64,000 nt of DNA from Streptomyces sp. ISL-1 (GTDB lineage Bacteria; Actinomycetota; Actinomycetes; Streptomycetales; Streptomycetaceae). Positions within the stretch are counted from its first letter, which is position 1; every line of letters begins with the position of its first letter. The notes under the pieces are model-generated. The model was not told where the DNA came from. It ran no database searches and saw only the letters and a program-made list of their open reading frames with translations. Shown here in pieces: positions 4,904-28,109 of this stretch. Location: the NCBI RefSeq assembly GCF_018614585.1, contig NZ_JAGGOI010000024.1, positions 62,001 to 126,000 of the forward strand, written 5' to 3'. A program made the translations under genes and the position numbers.

Positions 4904-4977
4904 TAGCGGGGACAGGATTTGAACCTGCGACCTCTGGGTTATGAGCCCAGCGAGCTACCGAGCTGCTCCACCCCGCG
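4904..4977 (-). tRNA. initiator tRNA-fMet(CAT), copy 1
   Basis: 74-nt tRNA on the minus strand, anticodon CAT in GGGCTCATAACCC. Initiator hallmarks are present: three G:C pairs at the base of the anticodon stem, and an unpaired C1 opposite A in the acceptor stem (5' CGCGGGG, 3' CCCCGCTA). The T-loop is GGTTCAAATCC. The terminal CCA is not encoded. The same 74 bases occur at 7484-7557. Confidence 0.95.
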
Positions 4978-7483: not shown

Positions 7484-7557
7484 TAGCGGGGACAGGATTT
7501 GAACCTGCGACCTCTGGGTTATGAGCCCAGCGAGCTACCGAGCTGCTCCACCCCGCG
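7484..7557 (-). tRNA. initiator tRNA-fMet(CAT), copy 2
   Basis: Identical in its 74 bases to the copy at 4904-4977, with the same C1:A mismatch, G:C-rich anticodon stem and CAT anticodon. CCA is not encoded. Confidence 0.95.
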
Positions 7558-21157: not shown

Positions 21158-22306
21158 ATGCATCCGATGGTGAAACCTGCCCTCAGGCGGGCATGGCGGG
21201 AGCGGCAGACCGTGCAGTTCGGGGTGACTCCCGCGCATGCGGTGATGGTCGGCCCGGTGGACACGGCGACAGGCGCCCTGCTCGAGCTGCTGGACGGGAC
21301 TCGAGGGCTGCCGCTGCTGCGGGAGGAGGCGCGGGCGATAGGACTGCCGGACGGACAAGCGGACGCCCTGGTGAAGCGGTTGACGTCGGCAGGCCTGCTC
21401 GACGATCCGACGGCGGGCGGTCCGGCGGCCGATGCGTTACGGGCTCGGACCGGCGCTCTCGACCGGCTGCGCCCCGATATGGCATCGCTCTCCGTTGTCC
21501 ACCCGGAACCGGGCGGCGCTGCGGCGCGCATGGCGGCCCGGCGGGCGATGCGCGTCCAGGTCCGGGGCGCGGGCCGGGTGGGCGCGACGATCGCCGCGGT
21601 GTTGTCCGCCTCCGGGGTGGGCGGGGTCGAGGTGCTGGACGGCGGGTGTACGGAGCCGTGGGACGTGGCGCCCGGCGGGCTGCCGCCGGAGGCGGTCGGT
21701 GAGCGGCGCGACACGGCGGCCCGGCAACTGGTGCGGCGGCGGGCGCCCGACCGCCCGCCACGAGCGGCCGAGTCGGCGGCGGGTTCGGGCACGGGCGAGC
21801 CCGGCCTCTCACTGGTCGTGGCGGCGCCACGGGACGGGCTGGAGGCCTACGCGCCCGACCCGGCAGCGGCCGAGGACTGGATCGCCACCGGGACACCCCA
21901 TCTGTACGCGGGAGTTGTGGAAGCGACCGGACTGGTGGGGCCGCTGGTGCTGCCCGGCGGCACGCCCTGCGCCGGCTGTCTGGAACTGGGCCGGGCGGAC
22001 CGCGACCCGGGCAGGGCGAGGCTGCTCGCGCAGTGGCGCTCGGGCCGCCGGCGCAACGCTGTGCCGGCCTGCGATGTCGCCCTGGCCACGGCTGTGGCGG
22101 GATTGACCGCGGCGCACGCGCTCTCGTTCCTCGACGGAGAGCTGCCCGCGAGTACGGGAGCGCGGTGGGAGGCGTCACTGCCGCTGCTGGAGTGGCGTTC
22201 GGAGAGCGTCACGCCCCACCTCGACTGTGTCTGCAGCGCGTCGGGGAAGAGTGAGAGGGAGCACACCTCAGGATTCCACCCGCTGCACGAGACAATGGCC
22301 GGGTAA
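21158..22306 (+). CDS. ThiF/E1-like protein of unknown role
   Basis: 382 residues. A Rossmann start lies in the middle (VQVRGAGRVGATIAAVLSASGVGGVEVLDGG), as in ThiF/MoeB or the E1-like partner proteins of RiPP cyclodehydratases. The N-terminal 110 residues look like a winged-helix docking domain (ALLELLDGTRGLPLLREEAR, LVKRLTSAGLLDD). Cysteines occur as GTPCAGCLELG and, at the end, DCVCSAS, possibly a zinc site. The Arg finger and full ATP-binding residues of MoeB are not evident, so adenylating activity is doubtful. GGGGGAAGTGGAT precedes the ATG. No peptide precursor or cyclodehydratase is seen nearby. Confidence 0.75.
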   Translation: MHPMVKPALRRAWRERQTVQFGVTPAHAVMVGPVDTATGALLELLDGTRGLPLLREEARAIGLPDGQADALVKRLTSAGLLDDPTAGGPAADALRARTGALDRLRPDMASLSVVHPEPGGAAARMAARRAMRVQVRGAGRVGATIAAVLSASGVGGVEVLDGGCTEPWDVAPGGLPPEAVGERRDTAARQLVRRRAPDRPPRAAESAAGSGTGEPGLSLVVAAPRDGLEAYAPDPAAAEDWIATGTPHLYAGVVEATGLVGPLVLPGGTPCAGCLELGRADRDPGRARLLAQWRSGRRRNAVPACDVALATAVAGLTAAHALSFLDGELPASTGARWEASLPLLEWRSESVTPHLDCVCSASGKSEREHTSGFHPLHETMAG

Positions 22307-22371
22307 CCGCCGTCAAAGAAGTAACGCCGTCAGGCACACGCGGCACGGCTGTCTGGGATTTGGAGGGGCTC

Positions 22372-23736
22372 ATGTCTGATCTTCCCCGGAAGGCGGTCAC
22401 CCGGACCGCCAAGTTGGCCGCGCTGCCACTGGGCTTCGCCGGGCGTGCCACTTGGGGTCTGGGCAAGCGGATCGGCGGGAAGTCCGCGGAGATCGTGGCC
22501 AGGGAACTGCAACAACGCACGGCGGACCAGCTGTTCAAGGTGCTCGGCGAGCTCAAAGGGGGTGCGATGAAGTTCGGGCAGGCCATGTCCGTCTTCGAGT
22601 CGGCGCTTCCCGAGGAAATCGCCGGCCCCTACCGCGCGGCCCTCACCAAGCTCCAGGACGCGGCACCGCCGATGCCGACGCGTACGGTCCACGCGGTCCT
22701 GGCCGAGCGGCTGGGCGAGGAGTGGCGCGAACTGTTCCTCAGCTTCGAGGACAAGCCGTCGGCCGCCGCCTCCATCGGCCAGGTGCACCGGGCGGTGTGG
22801 CACGACGGGCGCGAGGTCGCGGTGAAAGTGCAGTACCCGGGCGCGGGGGAGGCATTGCTGTCCGATCTGACGCAGCTCAGCCGCTTTGCCCGGCTGCTGG
22901 GTCCGCTTATCCCCGGCATGGACATCAAGCCGCTGATCGCCGAGCTCCGTGACCGGGTGTCGGAGGAGCTGGACTATGAGCTGGAGGGACAGGCGCAGCG
23001 GGAGCATGCGGCGGAGTTCGCGGACGATCCGGATGTGCTGGTGCCGGATGTGGTGCACCAGTGCGACCAGGTGCTGGTGACCGAGTGGATCGACGGGATC
23101 CCGCTTGCCGAGGTGATCGCCGACGGCACGGACGAGCAGCGGGACCGGGCGGGCCAGTTGCTGGCCCGCTTCCTCTTCTCGGGCCCGGCCCGCACGGGGC
23201 TGCTGCACGCGGATCCGCACCCGGGAAACTTCCGGCTGCTCCCGGAGGACGACGGCGAGGGCTGGCGGCTCGGGGTGCTGGACTTCGGCACGGTGGACCG
23301 ACTGCCCGGCGGACTGCCGTCGACCATCGGCGAGTGTCTGCGGATGACGCTGGCGGGTGAGGCCGAAGGGGTCTACGAGCTGCTGTGCCTCGAAGGCTTC
23401 GTCAAGGAGGCCATAGAGCTCGACCCGGAGGCGGTGCTCGAGTATCTGGTGCCGATCATAGAGCCGGCGGAGTTGGAGGAGTTCACCTTCACCCGGAGCT
23501 GGATGCGCACACAGGCAGCCCGGATCGCGGATATCCGGTCTCCCGCACATCAGTTGGGAAAGCAGCTCAATCTGCCGCCCTCCTACCTGCTGATCCACCG
23601 GGTGACGCTGAGCACGATCGGGGTGCTGTGCCAGCTGAACGCGACGGTGCGGCTGCGGGACGAACTGGAGTCGTGGCTGCCCGGTTTCCTGCTGGAGGAC
23701 GAGGAGGACGTCACGGCGATCGAGGCGCAGGCCTGA
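22372..23736 (+). CDS. ABC1/UbiB-family atypical kinase
   Basis: 454 residues. The UbiB hallmarks are present: KGGAMKFGQAMSVFES (KxGQ motif), SAAASIGQVHRAVWHDGREVAVKVQYPG (Ala-rich loop and catalytic Lys), LLHADPHPGNFRLL (catalytic loop) and LGVLDFGTVDRL (DFG). The family binds ATP and supports lipid or quinone metabolism at the membrane. The ATG at 22372 follows GGAGGGGCTC; a TTG four codons upstream would overlap that ribosome site. It lies 65 bp downstream of the ThiF-like gene, perhaps in one transcript. Confidence 0.9.
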   Translation: MSDLPRKAVTRTAKLAALPLGFAGRATWGLGKRIGGKSAEIVARELQQRTADQLFKVLGELKGGAMKFGQAMSVFESALPEEIAGPYRAALTKLQDAAPPMPTRTVHAVLAERLGEEWRELFLSFEDKPSAAASIGQVHRAVWHDGREVAVKVQYPGAGEALLSDLTQLSRFARLLGPLIPGMDIKPLIAELRDRVSEELDYELEGQAQREHAAEFADDPDVLVPDVVHQCDQVLVTEWIDGIPLAEVIADGTDEQRDRAGQLLARFLFSGPARTGLLHADPHPGNFRLLPEDDGEGWRLGVLDFGTVDRLPGGLPSTIGECLRMTLAGEAEGVYELLCLEGFVKEAIELDPEAVLEYLVPIIEPAELEEFTFTRSWMRTQAARIADIRSPAHQLGKQLNLPPSYLLIHRVTLSTIGVLCQLNATVRLRDELESWLPGFLLEDEEDVTAIEAQA

Positions 23737-23792
23737 GGGGCCGGCGCCGAGGACCGGGAGCGCGACAACAGCCGGCGGTCAGCGGGAGGCGG

Positions 23793-23993
23793 TCACCACC
23801 AGGCCGAGTCGAGCCTGCCCTCGATCGCCCTGATGTTGGCGCGCGCGCAGTCGTCGCAGAAGAAGTGACGGGTGCCGTTCTCCACGGAGCAGGTCCAGGT
23901 GGGCGGTGGTCCCTCGGCGACGGCGCCGCAGTGGGAACACACGATGCTCTCGGGACCCGGCTGCACAGGGTGAGGAGTCTGCTGCTGATCCAC
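23793..23993 (-). CDS. 66-residue zinc-ribbon-like protein
   Basis: A small protein with two Cys pairs, VCSHCGAVA and FCDDCARANI, plus a WTC in between, suggesting a zinc ribbon. It ends GRLDSAWW. The start is a GTG at 23993 with no strong ribosome site, but the Cys spacing and family-like composition indicate a real gene. Function unknown; a small regulatory or adaptor protein is possible. Confidence 0.65.
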   Translation of the reverse strand: MDQQQTPHPVQPGPESIVCSHCGAVAEGPPPTWTCSVENGTRHFFCDDCARANIRAIEGRLDSAWW

Positions 23994-24042
23994 GTCGTGA
24001 CGATAGCCCCGTCGGGCACGGGTCGCGGGGACAACGCACCGC

Positions 24043-24070
24043 GGGGGCCGGTCCGTTCGGACCGGCCCCC
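24043..24070. terminator. terminator hairpin at the end of the wblC operon
   Basis: A 12-bp perfect stem, GGGGGCCGGTCC (24043-24054) and GGACCGGCCCCC (24059-24070), loop GTTC, 35 bp beyond the stop of the gene coupled to wblC. Confidence 0.7.
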
Positions 24071-24104
24071 GGGTCAGTGTGTGCTGTCAGTGCCTTGACC
24101 GCGG

Positions 24105-24461
24105 TCAGTTCATGACGGCCATGGCCAGTGCGCGGCGGGCACGCATCGACGCGCGCTCGGCACGGCGCTGCATCCTCCGGGCGGCGATCAGGCGCACGGC
24201 CTGGCGTTCCGCTTCGGCTTCCCGCAGGCGATCGTGCATATGCGCACGCGCCATGGCTTCTGGGATGAGTTGCATCTCACGGGTCCTGTTCTGGCGCGAG
24301 GCGTTCGCGCCGCTGGTGGTGACGTCCGGGGTGGCGGAGCCAGACGGCTCGCTGGTGGAAGAGGTCATTGGGGCCAGCTTCTGGGGATCGTGCGTGATGG
24401 GTCGGTCGATCGTTCCGGTGCGCAGCGGGGGTTTGGCCGTCCCCCAGGAAATGACACTCAT
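24105..24461 (-). CDS. hypothetical protein coupled to wblC
   Basis: 118 residues. The start ATG overlaps the wblC stop (ATGA), so translation is coupled. The N-terminal half is Ser/Thr/Pro-rich and probably disordered. The C-terminal half is a charged helix rich in Arg and Ala (MARAHMHDRLREAEAERQAV followed by RLIAARRMQRRAERASMRAR). No known domain is recognised. Sharing WblC's transcript means it should be induced by the same translation stress, so a role in ribosome or antibiotic response is a guess worth testing. Confidence 0.72.
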   Translation of the reverse strand: MSVISWGTAKPPLRTGTIDRPITHDPQKLAPMTSSTSEPSGSATPDVTTSGANASRQNRTREMQLIPEAMARAHMHDRLREAEAERQAVRLIAARRMQRRAERASMRARRALAMAVMN

Positions 24462-24826
24462 GCCATGACCGGGTTCTTGCGCGGGCGACCACGCGGCCGC
24501 TTGCGGGCGACGACCACACCCTGGACGAAGAGCTCTCCGCCCCAGACGCCCCACGGCTCACGCCGCTCCTTGGCGCCCGCAAGGCAGGCCTCCATCAGCG
24601 GGCAGGTACGGCAGAGGGACTTGGCGTACTCGACATCAGCCGGCGACTCGGCGAAGAAGACCTCCGGGTCATACGAACGGCAGGGGACGGGTACGCCCAG
24701 GTTCTCGATGGCGTCGTCGAGCGCGGTGAGCGTAGTGAGCGGAGTCAAGGTGGAGTCCTCCGTGAGGGCGGGCGGGGGGAACGTCTCGGAAGGCGGTACG
24801 GACGGGGCGTGCGCTTCGAGTTGCAC
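24458..24826 (-). CDS. wblC: WblC/WhiB7 antibiotic-responsive transcription factor
   Basis: 122 residues. It has the four iron-sulfur cysteines (VPCRSY, then LCRTCPLMEAC), the GVWGGE turn that contacts the sigma factor, and a C-terminal AT-hook RPRGRPRKNP, which together define WhiB7/WblC. Family knowledge: it binds SigA/HrdB region 4 and AT-rich DNA just upstream of -35, and activates intrinsic resistance genes when ribosomes are inhibited. The GTG at 24826 is preceded by GAGGAACGACACCACC. Upstream lie a leader ORF, an attenuator and a WblC-type promoter, so expression is set by attenuation plus autoactivation. The downstream gene is coupled. Confidence 0.95.
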   Translation of the reverse strand: MQLEAHAPSVPPSETFPPPALTEDSTLTPLTTLTALDDAIENLGVPVPCRSYDPEVFFAESPADVEYAKSLCRTCPLMEACLAGAKERREPWGVWGGELFVQGVVVARKRPRGRPRKNPVMA

Positions 24827-24931
24827 GGTGGTGTCGTTCCTCGTCTGGTCGGTCCGGCCTGTTGGCCGGGTGTCGGCTTGGTACCGGGTGCTTCATGTCC
24901 CGAGGCCCCTTCGCTCCGTCCGCCCCGTTCG

Positions 24932-24977
24932 GGGAAAACAGAAGGGCCGCGGATCCCGGGTGGGGTTCCGCGGCCCT
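24932..24977 (-). terminator. attenuator hairpin in the wblC leader
   Basis: On the minus-strand RNA, AGGGCCGCGGA (24967-24977) pairs with TCCGCGGCCCT (24943-24953), an 11-bp stem, followed by TTCTGTTTTCC (down to 24932), a U-rich run. It lies 22 bp after the leader ORF stop and 117 bp before wblC, the position of a ribosome-controlled transcription attenuator. Confidence 0.75.
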
Positions 24978-24999
24978 GAAGGCGCCGGCCTGATCTGGA

Positions 25000-25326
25000 T
25001 CAGGCTGGATCACTCCAGGGTTCGAGCCCACGGAAGGCCCACATCGTGTGGTGCTGCGTCTGCTGCTTCTTGGTGCCGGCACTGGCTGCCGCAAAGGCAT
25101 AGGCGCGAGCCTTTGCCGCTGCTACTGCTGCTTCCAGTGCCTTGGTCGGTCGCTCATTGCGCTCCCGGACGGGGAGTCCACCCAGACCGGAGACCGGAAG
25201 CACGGCAGAGATGCCGGACACACCGGTGCCGTTGAACGCCGCGGAGAAGCCGAGCGAGCAGGCGGAGACGACCGAGCGATCGGTCATTTTGGCGGTGCTG
25301 ATGAAGCTGGTCTTGATGCTGATCAC
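25000..25326 (-). CDS. wblC leader ORF (108 residues)
   Basis: A GTG start at 25326 with AGGAGG eight bases upstream. The product is MISIKTSFISTAKMTDRSVV..., with an Ala/Lys-rich middle (TKALEAAVAAAKARAYAFAA) and an end containing TKKQQTQHHTMWAFRGLEPW then SDPA. It lies between the predicted wblC promoter and the attenuator hairpin. WhiB7-type leaders carry an upstream ORF whose translation state decides read-through. This ORF is longer than the mycobacterial leader peptides, so it may also make a functional small protein. The last 30 residues are the most distinctive and are where a stalled ribosome would affect the hairpin. Confidence 0.72.
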   Translation of the reverse strand: MISIKTSFISTAKMTDRSVVSACSLGFSAAFNGTGVSGISAVLPVSGLGGLPVRERNERPTKALEAAVAAAKARAYAFAAASAGTKKQQTQHHTMWAFRGLEPWSDPA

Positions 25327-25438
25327 TGGAATCGCCTCCTCTCGGCGTCTAGAGGACCGGCCGGGGCCAGTCACGCGTATTCGGATAAGTACAGCACGAG
25401 GACAGGGCTTCAGAGAAGTCGCTGTTCCCGTGGTTAAG

Positions 25439-25478
25439 AACCTATGGGGCTTGCTGGGGCAGGCGCAAACTATTTTTT
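25439..25478 (-). promoter_or_regulatory. wblC promoter with AT-rich WblC box
   Basis: On the minus strand, AAAAAATA (25471-25478) lies two bases upstream of -35 TTGCGC (25463-25468), then an 18-bp spacer and -10 TAGGTT (25439-25444). An AT-rich block directly above -35 is the hallmark of WhiB7/WblC-activated promoters, including its own. The promoter sits immediately beyond the uvrD2 stop. Confidence 0.7.
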
Positions 25479-25491
25479 CGACGAGTTTGTA

Positions 25492-27666
25492 TCAGTCCTC
25501 TTCGTCGGCCCCCTCGACCTCCTGACCTGCACAAATGGTCAGGACATCGGCTCCGAAACGCTCAAGTTTGCGTCCACCGACACCGGCGATCTGAGCCAAC
25601 TCCCCATCGCTGCCCGGCACCGTCTCGGCGATCGCCATCAGAGTCTTGTCGGTGAAGACGCAGTACGCGGGCTGGCCCAGCTCCTTCGCCTGGTCCGAGC
25701 GCCACTCGCGAAGGCGCTCGTACAGCGCCTCGTCCATGTCGGAGGGACAGTCCTCACAGCGTGTCAGTTTCATCTCGCCCGCGTCGGTGAGCGTCTTGCC
25801 GCAGACCCGGCAGAGCACAGGGCCTCGGCGTTTGCGGCGGCCGGCGCTGCCTCGCTCGATGCCGCCGGCACCGCCCGCGGCGCCTGCGCCGGGTGACACG
25901 GAGCCCGGCCGCATCCCGTTCAGGAAGCGGGTGGGACGGCGGGAGGCGCGGCCGCCGGGTGAGCGGGACAGCGCCCAGGAGAGGGTGAGATGGAGCCGGG
26001 CGCGGGTGACGCCGACATAGAGCAGTCGGCGCTCCTCCTCGACCTGCTCGTCGGTCTTGGCATAGGTGATCGGCATCATGCCCTCGGTGAGGCCGACAAG
26101 GAACACGGCGTCCCACTCCAGGCCCTTCGCCGAGTGGAGCGAGGCGAGAGTGACGCCCTGGACGGTGGGGGCGTGCTGGGCCGCGGCGCGCTCGTCCAGC
26201 TCGGCCACGAGATCGCCGAGGCTCGCGTCCGGCTTGACCCGTACATAGTCCTCGGCGAGGCGGACGAGCGCGGCAAGGGACTCCCAGCGGTCGCGCACCG
26301 CTCCCGATCCGGCGGGCGGCTCGGTGGTCCAGCCCTTGGTGGAGAGCACCGCCCGGACCTGGGAGGGGAGGTCCCCGGCGTCGTCGAGCAGGGAGTCGTT
26401 GCCACCTGCGCGGGCCGCGCCGCGCAGGGCGACACCCGCCTCCCGCACCTCCTGGCGTTCGAAGAAGCGCTCGGCGCCGCGCAGTTGGTAGGGGACTCCG
26501 GCGTCCGCGAGCGCCTGCTCGTAGACCTCCGACTGGGCGTTGATCCGGTAGAGCACGGCGATCTCACCGGCCGGGACCCCTGCGGCGATCAGGTCGCGGA
26601 TACGGCGGGCGGTGCCCTCGGCCTCGGCCGGTTCGTCCGCGTACTCGGTGTAGGCGGGGTCGGGGCCGGCTGCGCGCTGTGAGATCAGTTCGAGGCGGTG
26701 CTCGGCGGCGCGACCGTGGGCCTGGCTCAGCAGGCCGTTGGCGAGATGGACCACCTGGGGGGTGGAACGGTAGTCACGGACCAGCTTGACGACGGTCGCA
26801 CCCGGGTGGCGGGTACGGAAGTTCAGCAAGTGGTCGGGGGTGGCGCCGGTGAAGGAGTAGATCGTCTGGCTGGCGTCGCCGACGACACAGAGGCTGTCGC
26901 GGTCGCCGAGCCACAGGTCGAGCATCCGCTGCTGGAGCGGGCTGACGTCCTGGTACTCGTCCACCACGAAGTGGTGGTACTGACGGCGGATCTGGTCGGC
27001 GATGTCATGCCGGTCCTGGAGGATGCCGACCGTCAGGAGCAGGACATCCTCGAAGTCGATCACCGAGCGATCGCGCTTGAGCTGTTCGTACATCCCGTAG
27101 ATCTGGCTGATCTCGGCCGGATCACGCGGGGCGTCGCGGTTCGATTTGGCGACCGCTGCCGGATAGTCGGCGGGCACGGTCTGAGTGACCTTGGCCCACT
27201 CGATCTCGCTCGTGACGTCCCGCAGCTCATTTCGGTCGAGGCGGATGCGGCAGCGGGCGGAGGCCTCGGCGACCAGCTGGACCTTGCGCTCGAGGAGGCG
27301 GGGCAGATCGCCGCCGACCGCCTTCGGCCAGAAGTACTGGAGCTGGCGCAGCGCGGCTGAGTGGAACGTACGCGCCTGGACGCCGCCCGCGCCGAGCTGG
27401 CGCAGTCGGCCGCGCATCTCACCCGCGGCTCGGTTGGTGAAGGTGACGGCCAGCACAGTGGCGGGCTGGAGTATGCCCGCGCGCACTCCGTACGCGATGC
27501 GGTGGGTGATCGCGCGCGTCTTGCCCGTGCCGGCGCCTGCCAGCACGCAGACCGGACCGTGCAGGGCCGTCGCCACTTCGCGCTGCTCGGGGTCGAGCCC
27601 GTCGAGCACCGCGTCCGCCGACTCAGGGACCTGCGGGAAAAGGGAGGAGTGCGTTGCTGCTGTCAC
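25492..27666 (-). CDS. uvrD2: UvrD2-type SF1 helicase with HRDC domain
   Basis: 724 residues. Helicase motifs in order: Walker A VLAGAGTGKTRAI (~40), TFTNRAAGEMRGR, Walker B HHFVVDEYQDVSPLQQ (~235), GDASQTIYSFTGA, LVRDYRSTPQVV, SLHSAKGLEWDAVFLVG and LLYVGVTRARLHL. After a Gly-rich linker comes a four-Cys zinc element (LCRVCGKTL, RCEDCPS), then an HRDC domain with LREWRSDQAKELGQPAYCVF. This layout is that of actinobacterial UvrD2, an essential 3'-5' DNA helicase in mycobacteria. GTG 27666. It is divergent from the mycoredoxin gene. Confidence 0.94.
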   Translation of the reverse strand: MTAATHSSLFPQVPESADAVLDGLDPEQREVATALHGPVCVLAGAGTGKTRAITHRIAYGVRAGILQPATVLAVTFTNRAAGEMRGRLRQLGAGGVQARTFHSAALRQLQYFWPKAVGGDLPRLLERKVQLVAEASARCRIRLDRNELRDVTSEIEWAKVTQTVPADYPAAVAKSNRDAPRDPAEISQIYGMYEQLKRDRSVIDFEDVLLLTVGILQDRHDIADQIRRQYHHFVVDEYQDVSPLQQRMLDLWLGDRDSLCVVGDASQTIYSFTGATPDHLLNFRTRHPGATVVKLVRDYRSTPQVVHLANGLLSQAHGRAAEHRLELISQRAAGPDPAYTEYADEPAEAEGTARRIRDLIAAGVPAGEIAVLYRINAQSEVYEQALADAGVPYQLRGAERFFERQEVREAGVALRGAARAGGNDSLLDDAGDLPSQVRAVLSTKGWTTEPPAGSGAVRDRWESLAALVRLAEDYVRVKPDASLGDLVAELDERAAAQHAPTVQGVTLASLHSAKGLEWDAVFLVGLTEGMMPITYAKTDEQVEEERRLLYVGVTRARLHLTLSWALSRSPGGRASRRPTRFLNGMRPGSVSPGAGAAGGAGGIERGSAGRRKRRGPVLCRVCGKTLTDAGEMKLTRCEDCPSDMDEALYERLREWRSDQAKELGQPAYCVFTDKTLMAIAETVPGSDGELAQIAGVGGRKLERFGADVLTICAGQEVEGADEED

Positions 27667-27866
27667 ACCGCCATGCTGCCAGGTCGGCAGAGATGGCTGT
27701 GACGGTTGTCCACAGGGGGCCGGGTCCGGTCGTACTAATGCGGGAATGGCGGCCGGATCACGTACGTTCTACGCCGTGCGAACACGCACCGAGCGAACTC
27801 GCACGGAGCACGCATCGGGCGAATTCACACGACCGAGACGAACGAGACATAGGAGCGCGGGAAACC

Positions 27867-28109
27867 ATGCAGGGGACTGTGACGATGTACAGCACCACGT
27901 GGTGCGGCTACTGCCGTCGGCTGAAGAGCCAGATGGAGCGCGAAGGCATCGCGTACAACGAGATCAACATCGAGCAGGACCCGGATTCCGCGGCCTTCGT
28001 CGAGAAGGCCAACGGGGGCAACCAGACCGTCCCGACCGTGCTCTTCGCGGACGGTTCGACGCTGACCAACCCCTCGCTGGCCCAGGTCAAGCAGAAGATC
28101 GGCGTCTGA
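27867..28109 (+). CDS. mrx1: mycoredoxin (glutaredoxin-like)
   Basis: 80-residue thioredoxin-fold protein MQGTVTMYSTTWCGYCRRLK, with the CxxC active site WCGYC and cis-proline region NQTVPTVLFADG. In actinobacteria mycoredoxin-1 reduces mycothiol-protein mixed disulfides. The ATG at 27867 follows GGAGCGCGGGAAACC. It is convergent with nudC (11 bp between stops) and divergent from uvrD2. Length and motif fit the family exactly. Confidence 0.92.
   Translation: MQGTVTMYSTTWCGYCRRLKSQMEREGIAYNEINIEQDPDSAAFVEKANGGNQTVPTVLFADGSTLTNPSLAQVKQKIGV

Follow-up and report, generated by a model that had tools for sequence, protein, structure and literature searches.

A probable upstream-ORF attenuator before wblC in Streptomyces and its conserved CGA-CCG/hairpin element, a candidate ribosome pause site

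The wblC control region and its conservation

The window, a stretch of 64,000 nucleotides, carries on its minus strand a WblC-type promoter followed by a leader ORF, a terminator with a U-run, and wblC. We compared this locus across genomes, the genus being taken as Streptomyces and the family as Streptomycetaceae. Promoter, leader ORF and regulator gene are placed as follows, with the basis of each assignment in brackets.

25471–25478, minus strand: AT-rich WblC box, AAAAAATA (sequence and genus loci)
25439–25468, minus strand: -35 element TTGCGC (25468–25463), 18-bp spacer and -10 element TAGGTT (25444–25439) (sequence and genus loci)
25335–25340, minus strand: Shine-Dalgarno sequence AGGAGG of the leader ORF (sequence and genus alignment)
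25000–25326, minus strand: leader ORF (uORF) of 108 codons, with GTG at 25326 and TGA at 25002–25000 (ORF list and conservation)
24458–24826, minus strand: wblC, encoding a WhiB-like regulator of 122 amino acids (first GTG as start; Pfam Whib)

The original prediction proposed a self-activated promoter, AAAAAATA-TTGCGC-18 bp-TAGGTT, serving a leader-ORF attenuator. The promoter is found where it was predicted, and the reading as a whole fits the sequence and the published work on wblC. The box/-35/-10 pattern recurs in 114 of the 120 genus loci, with a spacer of 18 bp in 113 of these, and AAAATAGTTTGCG is present in 104 of the 120. The WblC motif described for S. coelicolor is GAAAWY, located 3 nt upstream of the -35, with a spacer of 16–19 bp (PMC7157823). 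In the window, the hexamer AAAAAT ends 3 nt before the -35 and agrees with five of the six letters of this motif; at the same place AAAAAT was found in 95 and GAAAAT in 21 of the 116 matched loci among the 120.

A match to the leader (E ≤ 0.01) was obtained in 120 of the 121 genus genomes, G116 being the one without, and wblC lies downstream of the leader at all 120 loci read, a count that is conditional because these loci were picked by their leader match. The recurrence of the leader in nearly every genome, together with wblC at each of the 120 loci, places its conservation far beyond chance. The product of wblC matches the Pfam Whib family (E = 9.2e-15), as a WhiB7-type gene should, and the WblC core was found in 169 of 197 class genomes (E ≤ 1e-12).

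The surroundings of the region deserve a few observations. A gene for a UvrD-like helicase with an HRDC domain (25492–27666, minus strand) adjoins the wblC leader directly upstream. A similar C-terminus, reading VFTDATL or VFTDNTL, was seen upstream of several class wblC loci, so that this gene order looks old. On the other side, a 118-codon ORF (24108–24461, minus strand) begins at the wblC stop codon and has no Pfam or NCBIfam match at E ≤ 0.01. Minus-strand tRNA matches with equal model scores lie at about 4904–4977 and 7484–7557 (G000:C17:66904, 69484), and an Rfam scan of 22000–28000 returned no match at E ≤ 1.

The 108-codon ORF with its own AGGAGG is present as originally described. Its frame is open further upstream (the mechanical ORF begins at 25374), and the start was picked by Shine-Dalgarno sequence and conservation; throughout the genus it was taken as the last start codon with a strong Shine-Dalgarno sequence. 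Defined in this way, GTG serves as the start codon at 107 and ATG at 13 of the 120 genus loci, 106 have GGAGG 8 nt before the start, the stop is TGA at all 120, and leader length ranges from 88 to 124 codons. Both the ORF and its Shine-Dalgarno sequence are conserved in the genus, and translation of the uORF is predicted from the sequence.

Leaders in other genera of the family are 98–181 codons long (30 loci from 30 genomes and 16 genera, the first 30 non-genus genomes listed, picked via wblC). Their stop codon lies 21–25 nt from a terminator of the same type in all 30 cases. A leader profile recognises 24 of the 30 at E < 1, the remaining six being placed by position only, and a plain protein search with the leader gave matches, some of them weak, in 71 of 101 family genomes. 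The original prediction had staked itself on conservation of the ORF in relatives, and this holds both within the genus and at the 30 other-genus loci.

For the class, we read 54 loci (14 from the wblC search output and 40 hand-picked for spread) out of 153 non-genus genomes with a wblC match. An ORF with a Shine-Dalgarno sequence ends 15–31 nt before the terminator in 50 of them, in a search that allowed a stop-to-terminator distance of -25 to 90 nt and gave no leader at the other four; in most cases the terminator arm resembles AGGCCGCGGAACCCG. Under a rule allowing only 12–32 nt to the terminator, 44 loci gave a leader and 10 gave none. These 44 leaders span 23–202 codons, and 37 of them fall within 58–125. 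The claim that the leader is far longer than those of mycobacteria is borne out against the two mycobacterial-looking leaders L181 and L187 (68 and 65 codons), but long uORFs are the rule in the class.

A covariance model of the family element matched 103 of 148 class genomes at E ≤ 0.01. Among the 100 matches listed, which exclude opposite-strand shadows of identical hairpins, 95 precede wblC by 22–286 nt on its strand, and five have no listed wblC place (G220, G244, G225, G121 and G156). The match in G121 adjoins a WhiB7-like ORF. An attenuator before other genes was considered and, on the four of these five matches that were judged, rejected: those in G220 (judged from its sequence) and in G244 and G225 (judged from ORF positions) look like plain terminators beside other genes. 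The attenuator element travels with wblC across much of the class, matching reports that whiB7/wblC is under uORF attenuation with an antiterminator and is induced by antibiotics or by starvation for amino acids (PMC11550727, PMC12421871, PMC9618640).

Other conserved stretches accompany the leader. Blocks in the 5'UTR lie within 25432–25384 and 25349–25333 (minus strand), namely GTGCTGTACTTATC at 25397–25384 and GACGCCGAGAGGAGGCG around the Shine-Dalgarno sequence. A 5'UTR helix, 25432–25427 with 25400–25395, shows six compensatory versus five disruptive double changes. At 25290–25281 (minus strand), the Lys13 codon is AAA, and AAA[AC]TGACCG occurs in 97 of the 120 genus and 11 of the 30 other-genus leaders.

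Terminator, antiterminator and the conserved tail of the leader

The end of the leader and the stretch before wblC hold the following RNA elements.

24943–24977, minus strand: intrinsic terminator, 24977–24967 paired with 24953–24943, U-run to 24936 (helix scan)
25028–25035, minus strand: antiterminator outer 5' arm TTCCGTGG, codons 98–100, pairing with 24973–24966 (helix scan, folding)
25013–25020, minus strand: antiterminator inner 5' arm CCCTGGAG, codons 103–105, pairing with 24981–24974 (helix scan, folding)
24966–24981, minus strand: 3' arm of the antiterminator, CTTCAGGGCCGCGGAA, which overlaps with the terminator 5' arm (helix scan, folding)
24988–25005, minus strand: stop-codon hairpin, GCCTGA (25005–25000) paired with TCAGGC (24993–24988) (covariation)

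The 11-bp hairpin with a U-run that had been noticed before wblC is conserved, with 99.7% of its cells paired over the 120 loci, and is followed by TTCTGTTTT. A helix scan over the aligned leaders gave two mutually compatible helices, TTCCGTGG with CCGCGGAA (24973–24966) and CCCTGGAG with CTTCAGGG (24981–24974), which make up an antiterminator of 16 bp with a 7-nt bulge on its 5' side; over the 120 loci, 97.5% of the outer and 99.3% of the inner cells are paired. Because the antiterminator 3' arm contains the terminator 5' arm, the two structures are mutually exclusive, an arrangement that emerges from sequence and folding with little antiterminator covariation. Compensatory double changes number one in the outer helix and none in the inner, with 11 and 5 disruptive single changes, respectively, and the antiterminator is supported by invariance more than by covariation. 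The stop-codon hairpin shows eight compensatory and no disruptive double changes, along with two disruptive single changes, and may explain why the stop is always TGA in the genus.

Paired cells reach 99.0% for terminator and stop hairpin and 96.4% for antiterminator and stop hairpin, both above any of 500 shuffles that ignore relatedness (72 rows, from 42 of the 120 genus loci and the 30 other-genus loci). No pair reached significance in a tree-based covariation scan over the whole leader, which is dominated by clade signal (best E 4.2). In a duplex-versus-shuffle test, which is weak in GC-rich RNA, no more than 5 of 100 shuffles were as good as the native duplex in 23 of 30 other-genus, 16 of 50 class and 3 of the 6 genus leaders tested. 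The inner arm is the one recognisable part of the antiterminator in an other-genus clade comprising L214–L217, L219 and L220. Three further candidate pairings came up: codons 75–77 with 95–97 (97.4% paired, no compensation, 15 disruptive single changes), the Shine-Dalgarno sequence with 24984–24978 (nearly invariant and hence uninformative) and 25083–25076 with 24988–24981 (no compensation, 23 disruptive changes).

A nascent piece of 99 nt, stopping short of the 3' terminator arm, gave antiterminator probabilities of 0.95 (outer) and 0.99 (inner) on folding, and masking a ribosome near codon 88 changed these to 0.91 and 0.98; for the whole untranslated nascent leader, they drop to 0.59 and 0.76. 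With the ribosome masked on the stop codon, the inner arm is lost and the outer helix persists in the nascent RNA (P = 0.86), where we argue that the ribosome on the stop would block it sterically. The terminator is favoured in all folding states tried once its 3' arm exists, so these models imply that the switch must be kinetic, like classic attenuators.

The antiterminator 5' arm bears directly on the distinctive C-terminus that the original prediction singled out. This tail is indeed conserved, and pairing with the terminator 5' arm accounts for it: to judge from the aligned leaders, it is the antiterminator 5' arm, an RNA element, read as protein, with codons 98–105 as its core. The comparison of body and tail that had been suggested was run on 59 disjoint close pairs within the genus, giving dN/dS of 0.80 for the body (codons 2–94, CI 0.73–0.88), 0.39 for the tail (0.26–0.55) and 0.08 for the WblC core. 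Synonymous change is lower in the tail than in the body (pS 0.054 versus 0.166), and codon 107 is CCA in 118 of the 120 genus leaders, a codon that makes up 0.6% of Pro codons in wblC genes. Low synonymous change and fixed rare codons argue for constraint on the tail at the RNA level. Amino-acid variation in the tail is found mainly at its edges and in the bulge, where L alternates with P at 101 and E with D at 102, and a peptide-level constraint on the tail is possible. As for the body, its ratio is mildly below 1, which does not amount to strong purifying selection on the protein; given this shortfall, and given that synonymous sites are under constraint too, weak protein constraint is possible. 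The body looks like a codon track, whose openness and length matter more than the protein.

These data bear on two readings of the leader as a peptide. The original prediction allowed it a dual role, as ribosome-stall sensor and as small protein; the former is supported, and it is very improbable that the ORF additionally encodes a small protein with a function of its own. Although the frame is open at all 120 genus and all 30 other-genus loci, the tail ratio is 0.39 and five residues in addition to the start are identical in all 120 leaders (A83, A97, R99, P103 and W104), these residues lie within or beside RNA-paired stretches, and one other-genus clade changes the tail peptide and keeps the inner RNA arm. 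The leader protein profile misses six of the 30 other-genus leaders, the product has no Pfam or NCBIfam match at E ≤ 0.01, and the body carries many in-frame indels and evolves fast relative to the WblC core, which leaves a separate small protein unsupported.

The second reading takes the C-terminus FRGLEPW as an arrest peptide, whose nascent chain would stall the drug-bound ribosome in the manner of ErmC-type leaders. The strong conservation of the tail would suit it, as would the reported breadth of inducers among ribosome-targeting antibiotics (PMC12421871). However, a ribosome arrested at the tail would be expected to sit on the very arm that the antiterminator needs and to promote termination, conservation down to individual codons, rare ones included, speaks for RNA, and the tail differs in some other genera (e.g. 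HGYPSWR) while CCTGGAG stays. We therefore regard an arrest peptide as improbable.

A CGA-CCG dicodon and hairpin within the leader ORF

A second conserved element lies in the middle of the leader ORF.

25147–25155, minus strand: GAGCGACCG, codons 58–60, with CGA-CCG at 25152–25147, the proposed pause site (CGA in P, CCG in A) (leader counts)
25134–25141, minus strand: body hairpin 5' arm GGCACTGG, 5 nt past the dicodon (covariation, offset tests)
25078–25085, minus strand: body hairpin 3' arm CCAGTGCC (covariation, offset tests)

GAGCGACCG is present in 112 of the 120 genus and 24 of the 30 other-genus leaders, and the whole pattern GAGCGACCG-N5-GGCA in 104 and 18, respectively. A single in-frame CGA-CCG is present in 116 of the 120 and 27 of the 30. 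CGA makes up 1.2% of Arg codons in wblC genes; the leaders contain 173 CGA codons, of which 143 are followed by CCG. The dicodon lies 39–101 codons from the start and 39–72 codons from the stop, and, as both distances vary, it is tied to neither end of the ORF. The spacer is fixed at five bases and free in sequence, and the bases that follow it form the foot of a body hairpin spanning an Ala-rich segment.

Among 116 genus leaders, 89 have the full 8-bp stem at the exact offset, against a mean of 3% and a maximum of 23% at other offsets; among other-genus leaders it is 7 of 27, against a mean of 1% and a maximum of 11%. When the 3' arm was placed by a pairing-blind rule, all 8 bp formed in 88 of 130 leaders versus at most 75 in 1000 shuffles that ignore relatedness, and 7 or 8 of the 8 bp in 110 of the 130. 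These 130 are the leaders with a placeable 3' arm among 150; seven lack the dicodon and 13 fail the simple 3'-arm rule, the window's own leader being one of the 13 (AGT instead of GGT). On the tree, the 6-bp core of the hairpin shows two compensatory and no disruptive double changes, with 13 tolerated and eight disruptive single changes. Compared with synonymous shuffles, the hairpin region in the genus folds only modestly better (median z -0.84; z below -1.5 in 27 of 116), and a control stretch lying upstream of the dicodon comes close to it (median z -0.60; 21 of 116); in the other genera, the hairpin region stands at -0.88 versus 0.09 for the upstream control.

The CGA-CCG/hairpin element is nearly confined to this family. 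CGA-CCG was found in one of 44 class leaders outside the family and is absent from the other 43, so the switch can work without it, and the GGCA arm is missing in the family clade formed by L214–L217, L219 and L220.

Two candidate roles were set aside. A long-range pairing of codons 18–20 with codons 58–61 is 91.5% paired, but with 40 disruptive single changes and no compensations; 38 of the 120 genus leaders have no GGTCG within their first 120 nt, and the pairing energy beats codon shuffles (p ≤ 0.05) in just 17 of 116 and 3 of 27 leaders. For a programmed frameshift through the terminator, the shifted frames end before the normal stop in 107 (+1) and 103 (-1) of 116 leaders, and no frameshift product is therefore evident.

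What the element does is best approached from its register. CGA, CCG and five nucleotides place the stem 11 nt from the first P-site nucleotide. The dnaX and HIV stem-loops are reported to inhibit A-site tRNA binding on bacterial ribosomes at 11–12 nt, with relief at 13 (PMC7282821); the wblC leader shares the 11-nt distance, and differs in lacking an evident frameshift product and in that its pause is predicted. In yeast, CGA-CCG is described as a strong stalling pair, at which an mRNA structure forms in the A site (PMC7829197, PMC6379720). The codon pair is identical here; the ribosome is bacterial, and the stalling evidence cited in the available parts of those papers is from yeast, with none for bacteria. 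The Arg tRNA anticodons found in the genome are ACG, CCG, CCT and TCT, with no TCG, in a scan of 63 matches, all covered by the stretches scanned, on an assembly about 91% complete. In yeast, inosine decodes CGA, and, as no TCG anticodon was found, CGA is presumably read through inosine here too.

By analogy, a programmed ribosome pause at CGA-CCG may set the sensitivity of the switch. Two independent brakes would then share a register, one being CGA, decoded by inosine, in the P site with CCG in the A site, and the other a hairpin at the entry channel 11 nt away; the pause would serve as a timer. We favour this reading because the codon-pair brake and the stem brake point at one codon, and we hold it tentatively, at somewhat less than an even chance. 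It includes, at the same strength, the proposals that, owing to the pause, the leading ribosome trails RNA polymerase by a small margin, such that any slowing of elongation, by antibiotic or starvation, tips the balance to the antiterminator, and that bacteria use here the CGA-CCG pair known from yeast. The literature matches listed for wblC/whiB7 leaders and SCO5190 (titles and abstract openings, with Lee, Lee and Roe, 2022 outside them) mention no leader pause site.

There is close to an even chance that GAGCGACCG-N5-hairpin is instead an RNA structural or protein-binding element and no pause signal. Nucleotide and codon identity are inseparable in homologous frames, GAG is conserved too, and in the genus the hairpin region folds only modestly better than its shuffles, with the upstream control close behind. 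A purely structural element sits less easily with a five-base spacing that is kept while its bases vary (23 variants among 122 full matches) and with a full stem at the exact offset; moreover, pairing of the element with the N-terminal region is seldom better than in codon shuffles, and the motif is not enriched elsewhere (106 matches including the leader sites versus 160 for the reversed control, in 61 genomes).

The proposed switch and its meaning

The locus is, with high probability, a WblC/WhiB7 uORF attenuator. Its parts, their conservation and their capacity to pair are seen directly in the genomes compared, and by homology with published work they would operate as a switch in this strain. 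A WblC-activated promoter would start transcription. A ribosome that reaches the TGA would cover the stop hairpin and the inner antiterminator arm, letting the terminator form and keeping wblC off. Where translation is stalled upstream of about codon 92, or never begun, codons 98–105 would be free as RNA polymerase passes; the limit of about codon 92 follows from the ribosome footprint. The free codons would pair with the terminator 5' arm and pre-empt the terminator, wblC would be transcribed, and its product would then activate its own promoter. The leader body would serve as a codon-counting track and not as a functional protein.

In this family, CGA-CCG and the entry-channel hairpin may slow the ribosome mid-track, such that small losses in elongation would then make it miss the polymerase. 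A ribosome held at CGA-CCG would leave the antiterminator free, and the length of the hold relative to polymerase transit would set read-through.

The class of mechanism is already known. The uORF-mediated attenuation of whiB7/wblC described by Lee, Lee and Roe (2022, Mol Microbiol 117:179), as cited elsewhere, concerns the same gene and likewise involves a uORF, a Rho-independent terminator, an antiterminator and induction by translation stress; compared through citing papers, the two show no difference in logic. The mycobacterial whiB7 leader is reported to have a uORF with a Shine-Dalgarno sequence, a 3' terminator and high 5'UTR-to-CDS transcription (Dinan et al., 2014, PMC4128351). The mycobacterial-looking leaders L181 and L187 differ in their shorter, Ala-rich ORF, in having no CGA codon and in failing the antiterminator test, with 86 and 83 of 100 shuffles as good. 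Beyond the original prediction, our analysis adds the RNA nature of the tail, the fast-evolving body and the mid-ORF element.

WblC/WhiB7 sets intrinsic resistance to many ribosome-targeting drugs in actinobacteria, and its control poses a question of design, namely how a single leader can respond to drugs that are chemically unrelated. A threshold set by a built-in pause would make the leader a sensor of elongation speed and not of drug identity. The pause reading also bears on whether CGA-CCG, a stalling pair in yeast, may slow bacterial ribosomes.
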